64,000 nucleotides of DNA, taken from NCBI GenBank assembly GCA_947464275.1, contig CANHVU010000002.1:62001-126000 (forward strand), in the 5' to 3' direction. The stretch comes from Bacteroidota bacterium (lineage in GTDB: Bacteria > Bacteroidota > Bacteroidia > UKL13-3). Shown in pieces: positions 10,892 to 50,429 of the stretch (the first letter of the stretch is position 1; the number at the start of each line of letters is the position of its first letter). The position numbers and the translations under genes were made by a program. The notes under the pieces were generated by a model. It saw only the letters and a list, made by a program, of their open reading frames with translations, was not told where the DNA came from and made no database searches.

Positions 10892-10945
10892 CAATTTTAT
10901 ATATAAATTTAAAATCCTTGCTTGCATAAAGCAGGGATTTTTTTA
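10892..10945 (+). terminator. Intrinsic terminator, upstream copy of a duplicated terminator
   Basis: An 11-bp stem (AATCCTTGCTT at 10913-10923 with AAGCAGGGATT at 10929-10939, one G-T pair), 5-nt loop, then a T run. Together with the preceding CAATTTTATATATAAATT it forms a ~55-bp unit repeated almost identically at 11604-11656. It probably ends nrdJ transcripts despite lying ~270 bp downstream. Confidence 0.85.
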
Positions 10946-11023
10946 TTCTAAATTTTTAAATTGTTTTTACAGTTAAAAAATGGAATGTTTGTTTAAAATA
11001 AATTCTTTAGTTTGAGTAAAAGT

Positions 11024-11581
11024 ATGAAAGTAAAATTACCCTCAATTATATATTTGGTATTGCTAAGTGTTTTAATAAATGCTTGTAGCAAAGGTTGCCC
11101 TGATAGCAAACCCATAGAAAGGGGAGTAGATAAAAGCTACTTACCTAATATCATTCCTTACAGCGATACCAGCACTCGTTTATTTTTAAAAAATGGAACC
11201 GATACCTTACTTTTTAAAAGCCAAGGTTTGAAAGAAACAATTACAAACGAACTATACGGTGAAAGCTGCGAAAACTACAATATACAAAAATACAACCTGA
11301 AAATGGCTGCAAGTGATACGGATTTTTTTCAAATTAATTATTATGGATACTGGCAAGGAGGTCCTCTTGTTCGTTACAATAGCTCTAATTTTGAAACAAA
11401 TGAAATATATGATGGGCGCTACATTAATTTTTTTCAATTAAAGCAGCTTAGCGTCCTTAGTCATATTTATGATAGTGTTTCTATTTCACCAAATACATAT
11501 GGAGATACTGTATACTCTAATTTAAAATTTGGTGTTTTGAGAGTTAAAGATATGAATAATGTCTATGAATTAATCAAATAA
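11024..11581 (+). CDS. Lipoprotein of unknown function (related to the 48.7/49.5 kb pair)
   Basis: 185-aa predicted lipoprotein: MKVKLPSIIYLVLLSVLINA then Cys, followed by SKGCPDSKP. I chose the ATG at 11024; the TTG at 11012 adds only four residues. The body (IPYSDTSTRLFLKNGTDTLL) and the C-terminal motif (LKFGVLRVKDMNNVYEL) resemble the lipoproteins at 48716 and 49515, which have '(I)P(F/Y)xGN(D/E)TL' and 'YGhhxhxhxxxxhahL'. The three appear to be distant members of one family. The gene is bracketed by two near-identical terminator units, which suggests insertion or duplication as a cassette. Function unknown. Confidence 0.7.
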   Translation: MKVKLPSIIYLVLLSVLINACSKGCPDSKPIERGVDKSYLPNIIPYSDTSTRLFLKNGTDTLLFKSQGLKETITNELYGESCENYNIQKYNLKMAASDTDFFQINYYGYWQGGPLVRYNSSNFETNEIYDGRYINFFQLKQLSVLSHIYDSVSISPNTYGDTVYSNLKFGVLRVKDMNNVYELIK

Positions 11582-11603
11582 ACAAAATACCCTACTAATG
11601 CAT

Positions 11604-11656
11604 CAATTTTATATATAAATTAAAGTCCTTGCTTGCATAAAGCAGGGATTTTTTTT
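11604..11656 (+). terminator. Intrinsic terminator, downstream copy of a duplicated terminator
   Basis: Same unit as 10892-10945 with very few differences: AGTCCTTGCTT (11624-11634), loop GCATA, AAGCAGGGATT (11640-11650), then eight T. It ends the lipoprotein gene and also separates it from the convergent GNAT gene. Confidence 0.88.
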
Positions 11657-11678
11657 ATTCCAAACACTTTTAAGCAAT

Positions 11679-48383: not shown

Positions 48384-48715
48384 GGTTGTAAATATCTTAA
48401 TTCAAAATCCAACACAATAAAACATTTATATAAAAAAATAACTAATTAAGTTATCAAGAATTATAAGTTAGTTGTTTCATTTTATAATATTTATACCTAC
48501 TTTCATTTTATAAAGTATTATTTACCATACTATTAAAACCAATTTTAAATTTAAACTACTAATAAATAGTACATTGTGTTTTTAAAGTAAAATACCACAA
48601 ATGCAGTATTGCTATTGGTATTAAAATAACCAATGTTTGTTTTAATAAGAAACGCCTGTTTTTAGGTAATGCTTAAAGGTGTCATTTATCCATTATTTGA
48701 AAAAACTATAAACCA
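48384..48715. other. 332-bp AT-rich intergenic region before the lipoprotein pair
   Basis: No convincing gene. It contains GTTAGTTGTTTCATTTTATA (48468-48487, continued by ATATTT to 48492), a 25-bp stretch repeated with two differences at 50327-50351. The two copies flank the whole lipoprotein/hairpin-repeat block. This is the only structure I see; there is no clear promoter match. Confidence 0.5.
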
Positions 48716-49318
48716 ATGAAAACACTAAACTATAACATAATTATAAAACTAAAAGCACTAAGTATAATAACTATAATTATGCTATGCCAAAGCTGCAAGA
48801 AGGACAACAATTGTGGCGACACCAGTGATGTAGTAAACAATTACTTTATATCAGCAGATGATAAAGCAAAAATACCTTTTAAAGGAAATGATACACTAGT
48901 ATATATTAGTGACGCAGGCGATACAGCAACCTTGATAGGGGAAGGTAAGAACACTAGGACTGAACAAAAAATAACCAATATAAGTGGTGGTGATTGTGCA
49001 AAAAACCAAATTGATAAAAAAGAAACAATTAGTATTGAATACAATGGAAATAATAATGAACTAAATAAAATTTTGTATAAAATTTCTGGAAATAATGAGA
49101 GAACTTTAATAGAATACATGGTTAATACTGTCTACAGTAATGATTATCCATATTATTTTAATTCAGACAAATTTTATAAAGATTCTACATTAATAAAAAG
49201 TATTTTTTATTCAGGGGTGATATTAGATAACATAAATTATAAGGCATTATATAATTTTAATTATGGATTTTTAAAAATAGAGTTTAAAGGAGGAAAAATA
49301 TGGTTTTTAAAAATATAA
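48716..49318 (+). CDS. Lipoprotein of unknown function (paralogue 1)
   Basis: 200-aa predicted lipoprotein: MKTLNYNIIIKLKALSIITI then LCQSC, followed by KKD. The body contains 'ADDKAKIPFKGNDTLVYISD' and 'GDTATLIGEGKN', shared with the neighbour at 49515 (DDNTKAQIPYTGNETLTFIS; GDTAILKGQGKN). The C-terminus (ALYNFNYGFLKIEFKGGKIW) matches the same family pattern. It has no known domain. It is followed immediately by the ~155-bp hairpin repeat (49336-49493), whose first hairpin is a good terminator. Confidence 0.75.
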   Translation: MKTLNYNIIIKLKALSIITIIMLCQSCKKDNNCGDTSDVVNNYFISADDKAKIPFKGNDTLVYISDAGDTATLIGEGKNTRTEQKITNISGGDCAKNQIDKKETISIEYNGNNNELNKILYKISGNNERTLIEYMVNTVYSNDYPYYFNSDKFYKDSTLIKSIFYSGVILDNINYKALYNFNYGFLKIEFKGGKIWFLKI

Positions 49319-49335
49319 AAACTATGAGAATTTTA

Positions 49336-49493
49336 TTTGCCTGCGGTTGGTGTTTTCACCAACCTTTTTTGATATAAAAAAATATCTCCTTGCATTAAAC
49401 TAAAAATTATAAATACTTTTAAGTTGCTAATTATTTATCTCAGACAAGCATTAAACTGTTACTTGGTTGGTGAGAACACCAACCATAGGCAAA
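49336..49493. repeat. 158-bp hairpin-ended element, copy 1
   Basis: Ends are inverted repeats: TTTGCCTGCGGTTGGTG (49336-49352) and CACCAACCATAGGCAAA (49477-49493), with two mismatches over 17 bp. Each end also folds by itself: GGTTGGTG-TTTT-CACCAACC (49345-49364, followed by T's) and GGTTGGTG-AGAA-CACCAACC (49465-49484). The middle is AT-rich and contains ATTAAACTAAAAATTATAAA, conserved in copy 2. No ORF. Confidence 0.8.
49345..49370 (+). terminator. Terminator of lipoprotein paralogue 1 (left hairpin of the repeat)
   Basis: GGTTGGTG-TTTT-CACCAACC stem-loop, 8 bp perfect, followed by six T, 26 bp after the stop codon. Confidence 0.85.
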
Positions 49494-49514
49494 AACAATT
49501 TTAAAAAACAACAT

Positions 49515-50129
49515 ATGAAAACAGCCAAACTATTTCAAACCCAAAGTTTAATAATTATACTTTTGTTATTTTCAGCATGCAGCAAGCAAAACCCCTGCAA
49601 TGGCAGTAATTACACCCCAAAAAATTTTAATTATTTAATAGATGATAACACTAAGGCACAAATACCATACACAGGCAACGAAACCTTAACATTTATTAGC
49701 AATCAAGGTGATACAGCTATTCTAAAAGGACAAGGTAAAAATAACTTTATGAAAAAAACCACTAAAAATAGCGTAACTAGTATTGACTGCCCTGAGTATG
49801 ATAATTATAATTTTGAATATGTGGATGTTGAGTACAAAGGAACTAATTCCAATCTTTCTAATTTGTTTTATAGAGTATTTGCTAATGAATATTGGCAATT
49901 AGAGGCCTCTGCTTATTTGAACAAATCACATTATGATTATAATGCATATTTGAGTTATTATAACAATAATAGCTTATATACTTACCCTGTAGTTTGTGGT
50001 AATAAAACACTATTTGGTCGGAAAATATTGGGTGAAAAGGATACAGATCCTTTTTTTATTTATAACAAATCATATGGCATAATTCAAATTCAAATAGATA
50101 GCAATCTTATTTACACTTTAACTTTATAA
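49515..50129 (+). CDS. Lipoprotein of unknown function (paralogue 2)
   Basis: 204-aa predicted lipoprotein: MKTAKLFQTQSLIIILLLFS then AC, followed by SKQNPC. Clear paralogue of 48716 (identical pattern AKxPxxGN(D/E)TLxxIS and GDTAxLxGxGKN, C-terminal YNKSYGIIQIQIDSNLIYTL). The mature N-terminus has the Cys-rich 'CNGSNYTPKN'. The ATG at 49515 is preferred; the frame's earlier GTG lies in the hairpin repeat (49467 region). It is followed by copy 2 of the hairpin element. Function unknown. Confidence 0.75.
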   Translation: MKTAKLFQTQSLIIILLLFSACSKQNPCNGSNYTPKNFNYLIDDNTKAQIPYTGNETLTFISNQGDTAILKGQGKNNFMKKTTKNSVTSIDCPEYDNYNFEYVDVEYKGTNSNLSNLFYRVFANEYWQLEASAYLNKSHYDYNAYLSYYNNNSLYTYPVVCGNKTLFGRKILGEKDTDPFFIYNKSYGIIQIQIDSNLIYTLTL

Positions 50130-50130
50130 A

Positions 50131-50283
50131 TTTCTATGCGATTTGTGTTTTCACCAACCTTATAGATATAAAAATAACTCCTTGGATTAAACTAAAAATT
50201 ATAAATACTCTTAAGTTTCTAATTATTCATCTCAGAACAGGCATTTAACTGTTTTGGATGGTGAGAACACCCACCATAGGCAA
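50131..50283. repeat. 153-bp hairpin-ended element, copy 2 (degenerate)
   Basis: Aligned end to end with copy 1: ATTAAACTAAAAATTATAAA is shared (50184-50203), and CTAATTATTCATCTCAGA continues the match. The left end is altered (TTTCTATGCGATTTGTG), which destroys the left hairpin; the right end still reads GGATGGTG-AGAA-CACCCACC-ATAGGCAA. A further half-end (ACCAAACATAGGCAAA) is at 50308-50323. Confidence 0.78.
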
Positions 50284-50429
50284 CTTTAAGGATTGCATCT
50301 GGGAAAAACCAAACATAGGCAAATAGCTAGTTGTTTTATTTTATAATATTTTTAAAACATTTTGTAGTTTGAAACAGAAATAAATATATTGCTTGAAGTA
50401 ATTTAATAAAATTGAATTAAAATATCTAC

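Follow-up and report, generated by a model that had tools for sequence, protein, structure and literature searches.

Lipoprotein genes and probable deletion derivatives of a REP-RAYT-REP unit at a variable locus of a Bacteroidota genome

Two adjacent lipoprotein genes in a Bacteroidota genome are each followed by a copy of the same repeat of about 155 bp, and the whole block lies between direct repeats. What is this repeat, and did genes and repeats arrive together? The window analysed here is a stretch of 64,000 nucleotides (G000:C2:62001-126000) from a genome, G000, of 3.4 Mb in 68 contigs. We compare it with other assembled, partly metagenomic genomes (G numbers; contigs and loci are given as C and L numbers), amongst which G007 and G009 are two relatives within the same genus. 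A first-pass annotation of the window had described the two genes, the element after each and flanking direct repeats of 25 bp, and all of these are present. LP1 (48716-49318, plus strand, 200 aa) and LP2 (49515-50129, plus strand, 204 aa) both start with a signal peptide and a lipobox cysteine. Element 1 (49336-49493) begins 18 bp after the stop codon of LP1, and element 2 (50130-50283) 1 bp after that of LP2. LP1 is preceded by a conserved leader and probable promoter, ATTAAAATAACCAATGTTTGTTT (48605-48646, plus strand), common to other members of the family, whereas LP2 starts 22 bp past element 1 and has no leader. The direct repeats are 27/30 identical when taken as 30-bp units (48466-48495 and 50325-50354). 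We also find a degenerate third REP half (50293-50322, minus strand, ..AACCAAACATAGGCAA) on the right-hand margin of the inserted block and, elsewhere in the window, two more lipoproteins of the family, at 11024-11581 and, weakly, at 1599-2177.

The element consists of two inverted copies of the hairpin 5'-TTTGCCTRNGGTTGGTG-TTYT-CACCAACC-3'. Together with its foot, the end unit reads TTTGCCT-NN-GGTTGGTG-TTYT-CACCAACC. The ends of element 1 had been described as inverted repeats that also fold by themselves; the inverted arms are 36 nt long with 86% complementarity, and each end does fold on its own. Its left REP (49336-49364, plus strand) reads TTTGCCTGC-GGTTGGTG-TTTT-CACCAACC followed by T6, a terminator-like arrangement, and its right REP (49465-49493, minus strand) is inverted. 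The RNA fold of element 1 has -13.5 kcal/mol (z = -5.0); in element 2, both hairpins are degenerate, with 2 mismatches each. The two elements are 88-90% identical (136 matching positions, 16 mismatches and some gaps), reaching 92% over a 71-nt core, and both are 86-88% identical to an element in the sister genome G004. The pattern GGTTGGTGN4CACCAACC has 4 matches in the window at up to 3 mismatches, where 0.07 are expected. A lone sub-threshold microRNA match in Rfam over element 1 was rejected.

The hairpin is dispersed through the genome. At up to 2 mismatches, the unit occurs 47 times in G000, versus 1 for a reversed control pattern. These 47 hairpins group into 25 clusters, many of which are inverted pairs or short tandem arrays, and nearly all of those mapped are intergenic. 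Inverted doublets of the BIME or REPIN type are found in the window and on C3, C10, C17, C27 and C41. The full element with the window-type interior has only two good copies in G000, side by side; the second could stem from local recombination, and for the elements alone the pair may be a local duplication. The ends of contigs C10 and C17 (L061, L065) carry tandem arrays of REP doublets with a period of 142 bp, at which the assembly probably breaks, and these two contigs may adjoin.

The likely parent of the element is on contig C14 of G000 (49177-50100), where a 172-aa ORF has element-type hairpins on both sides. The ORF is a REP-associated tyrosine transposase (RAYT) by NCBIfam (NF047646, 84.3 bits, cut-off 80), resembles TnpArep in the PDB (4er8, E 0.001) and carries the HUH and Tyr motifs, read in the sequence as MPNHIHII and YIHNNP; its match to Pfam Y1_Tnp, at 18.5 bits, is under the cut-off of 23. 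A RAYT 82% identical to this one, on G007 C3, again sits between element-type hairpins in another gene neighbourhood. The right part of the window element aligns to the last RAYT codons and the right hairpin of the C14 REP-RAYT-REP unit: in element 1, 49430-49492 matches unit positions 565-627 at 86%, and the relic at 49430-49464 (plus strand) is what remains of the gene's 3' end. The same relic is found in elements on G000 C9, G009 C27 and G009 C36. It is clearest on G009 C27, where two tandem elements keep positions 511-627 of the unit at 83-86%, and on G009 C140 RAYT codons 3-28 are fused to 131-168 between hairpins. The window elements have one more small deletion and about 40 bp of other sequence. 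Because the spacer of the doublet is a relic of RAYT coding sequence, it points to an origin by internal deletion, and copies with a similar junction at several unrelated loci show that the derivative has spread in miniature form.

Its sequence, then, marks the element as what a REP-RAYT-REP unit leaves after an internal deletion. The first-pass annotation had proposed a MITE-like mobile repeat, a proposal that agrees with such a derivation and with the dispersal of its ends. As in the MITEs RUP, NEMIS and Nezha (PMC3733652), which have 70-300 bp, terminal inverted repeats and no coding capacity, the element comes from a transposase-bearing parent, and like them it is found beside genes as a terminator-like structure. 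It differs from them in that the parent is an HUH tyrosine transposase unit and in that the element borders show no short target-site duplication, the 25-30-bp repeats being only around the whole block. Four more RAYTs in G000 (L042-L045; C2:13 kb, C3:13 kb, C16:36 kb and C26:1 kb) each have their own hairpin family, so that one genome holds several RAYT-hairpin pairs. G009 (L104, L216) has a related RAYT accompanied by arrays of GTTGTTGGTG-AAGAA-CACCAACAAC hairpins, and there too a derivative whose RAYT gene has lost an internal part.

The element is thus a REP doublet, or MITE, of a RAYT type known in Bacteroidetes. It shares with REP/BIME/REPIN systems the short extragenic hairpins in many copies and inverted doublets, a separate hairpin family for each RAYT, and a RAYT gene flanked by its hairpins (a REPtron). 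The differences are in the foot and in the spacer. The canonical REP foot GT[AG]G is absent from the element hairpin, whose foot is TTTGCCT, with GCC at a fixed distance from the stem, and the spacer is a relic of RAYT coding sequence. We inspected 30 other RAYT loci from other Bacteroidota and a few other phyla: 14/30 have a hairpin common to both flanks, 16/30 have a TTGGTG/CACCAA core on both flanks, and GCC stands at a fixed place just before the stem in 39/54 hairpins of related RAYTs. Quentin et al. (2018, PMC6006769) describe RAYT subclass 2.6, found mostly in Bacteroidetes, as having on its flanks atypical structures that lack GT[AG]G. We regard the element as belonging to this kind, the points of agreement being just the host phylum and the atypical hairpins. 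REPs and RAYTs have been studied almost only in Proteobacteria, and from the present locus a clear motif of hairpin and foot can be read for the "atypical" class of Bacteroidota. It also carries direct traces of a REP doublet formed by deletion within a REP-RAYT-REP unit, which bear on how doublets arise. REPtrons, according to the literature, do not appear to move as units.

How the lipoprotein genes relate to the element is best seen at the same sites in related genomes. In G003 and G006 the insert is absent from between the two genes that border it, and the 30-bp repeat occurs once in G003, where G000 and G004 each have one copy on either side of the block. G004 is 96% identical to G000 up to the end of the leader. 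Right after it the identity ends, and there follow a different lipoprotein gene with an early stop (a pseudogene), one element at a position orthologous to element 2, and the same right flank. The comparison of presence and absence between relatives, put forward in the first-pass annotation, thereby yields two genomes without the insert and one with a single element behind another lipoprotein. The coding sequence of the G004 pseudogene is about 80% identical (411 identities, 95 mismatches) to the lipoprotein gene at window position 11024, a gene that the corresponding site of G004 lacks; the coding sequence of one locus is thus found between the leader and the element of another. On C12, G000 has element-lipoprotein-element with two REP-type repeats of about 113 bp; at the same site G004 has one element without lipoprotein, and G003 lacks the whole insert. 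On C10, an insert of about 810 bp (REP and lipoprotein) is absent from G003 and G004, with no long target duplication. At these three loci, lipoprotein and element have been gained or lost together. On C9, a degraded lipoprotein gene and an element lie where G004 C56 has a lipoprotein gene and a hairpin. Elsewhere in the window (10892-11664), the lipoprotein gene 11024-11581 lies between 62-bp direct repeats (93.5% identical, terminator-like), and the matching place in G004 has one repeat copy and no lipoprotein.

In single-stranded DNA, hairpin ends are bound by RAYT enzymes, which make their cuts and joins next to them. Work on E. coli has established that such enzymes act on hairpins in single-stranded DNA (PMC8266576). 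What we observe here are shared ends, a relic of the RAYT gene, dispersal, a cognate hairpin-flanked RAYT and empty sites in congeners, and we consider it highly probable that a BIME- or REPIN-like REP doublet arose by deletion in a RAYT unit, is mobilised by a RAYT in trans, and promotes lipoprotein turnover through its copies. Internal deletion of a REP-RAYT-REP unit would have produced the miniature doublet, and a RAYT of the C14 type, presumably by cutting at these hairpins, would spread REPs and the miniature element in trans. Element copies would then serve as direct repeats that allow a segment of lipoprotein and element to be gained or lost, homologous recombination being the probable route, as suggested by the layout in assembled, partly metagenomic genomes. 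The lipoproteins would be a multi-copy family of fast turnover, and we infer that this turnover proceeds by recombination around REP-type repeats. A lipoprotein family whose members change places from one sister species to another is a natural system in which to test whether REPs promote gene exchange.

The strongest competitor, to which we give somewhat less than an even chance, is that ordinary horizontal transfer and homologous recombination act at variable loci, and that REPs merely pile up in tolerant intergenic spots. Lipoproteins are indeed swapped without a visible REP at the C44/C53/C45 locus, and near lipoproteins there are RAYTs from several subgroups (G009 C178, G018 C1, G004 C45), as a permissive hot spot would lead one to expect; against this, the differences between the sister genomes on C12 and in the window coincide with element borders. 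It is doubtful that REPs act as cassette exchange points, with lipoprotein coding sequences swapped between a fixed leader and a 3' REP and with RAYT cutting giving circular intermediates of gene and REP. The likeness to integron gene cassettes is one of layout only, namely a gene without a promoter (LP2) that has a hairpin repeat behind it, and a gene content that varies between fixed promoter and repeat; the hairpin has no attC core GTTRRRY and reads GTTGGTG instead. We find it quite unlikely that a target-duplicating transposon brought the insert, with the 30-bp repeats as its target-site duplication and the RAYT uninvolved. A single repeat at the empty site of G003 and a pair enclosing the block in G000 and in G004 are what such a transposon would leave, but the block contains no such transposase gene, and a duplication of 25-30 bp far exceeds those made by known transposases. 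The repeat lengths also differ at other lipoprotein inserts, from 62 bp (10892-10953/11604-11664) to about 113 bp on C12 and none on C10.

Returning to the reading by REP doublet and RAYT, there is some linkage between element and lipoprotein, but not an exclusive one. A strict REP hairpin lies within 150 bp of 2/10 lipoprotein loci in G000, against an expectation of about 0.08 (p about 0.003), and the loci on C10 and C12 have degenerate hairpins in addition. The adjacency that the first-pass annotation had raised is enriched by this count, but most of the 25 hairpin clusters in G000 are not next to a lipoprotein, and an exclusive link was rejected for that reason. Direct repeats occur in both flanks of 14/59 lipoproteins and of 18/197 other genes (ORFs of at least 120 aa at the same loci), a count in which many of the 14 are tandem lipoprotein arrays and the loci are not random choices. 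RAYT and lipoprotein genes lie within 1 kb of each other at four loci counted by eye, which is suggestive.

These counts bear on the idea that the element is a plain terminator or mRNA-stabilising module, copied only with lipoprotein genes, which we hold to be highly unlikely and mostly refuted. The elements do start 18 and 1 bp after the stops, the GC stem and T6 of element 1 (49345-49370) look like a terminator that probably ends transcription of LP1, and elements also lie 3' of lipoproteins in G004 C12, G004 C56 and G002 C68. But most hairpin clusters are away from lipoproteins, the interior of the element is RAYT coding sequence, a RAYT is flanked by the same hairpins, and on C10 the hairpin is upstream of the lipoprotein. 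Of the terminator module travelling with the gene family that had been suggested, the terminator look stands and the tie to the family does not.

That gene and element were duplicated in tandem as one unit, as the first-pass annotation had it, fits the order LP1-element 1-LP2-element 2 and the approximately 89% identity of the elements, but is next to impossible for the genes: LP1 and LP2 are only about 30% identical, fall into separate clades with other species' genes between them, and differ in that LP1 has the leader, so that the unit was not duplicated whole. In the tree, LP2 pairs with the C10 lipoprotein (66% identical, support 99/99), and LP1 forms a clade with lipoproteins from G003, G004 and G009 (99/99), its nearest kin being on G003 C43 (68%).

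The lipoprotein model is all-beta (pLDDT 90), with no PDB match for the fold at E 0.001 or better. An assignment of LP2 to BamJ (NCBIfam) was rejected as weak, at 19.7 bits against a cut-off of 100. In relatives (L195, L199, L200, L202, L204, L206, L207), a secreted protein of 270-700 aa is encoded directly 3' of the lipoprotein. These partners have no Pfam or NCBIfam match. The partner may be a polysaccharide lyase by its look, but its model is poor (pLDDT 46) and no sequence in the PDB matches it. An effector-immunity role, considered given that the lipoproteins precede large secreted proteins in relatives, was set aside, as Pfam, NCBIfam and PADLOC gave no toxin or defence family. Our guess is that the lipoprotein acts as a partner protein at the surface or in the periplasm and is subject to diversifying selection. 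At one locus compared in three genomes (L175/L180/L186), two have a lipoprotein gene on the minus strand, and the third carries on the plus strand a family member unrelated to it, as well as, close by, a broken RAYT at a place that is taken in G003 by another lipoprotein.
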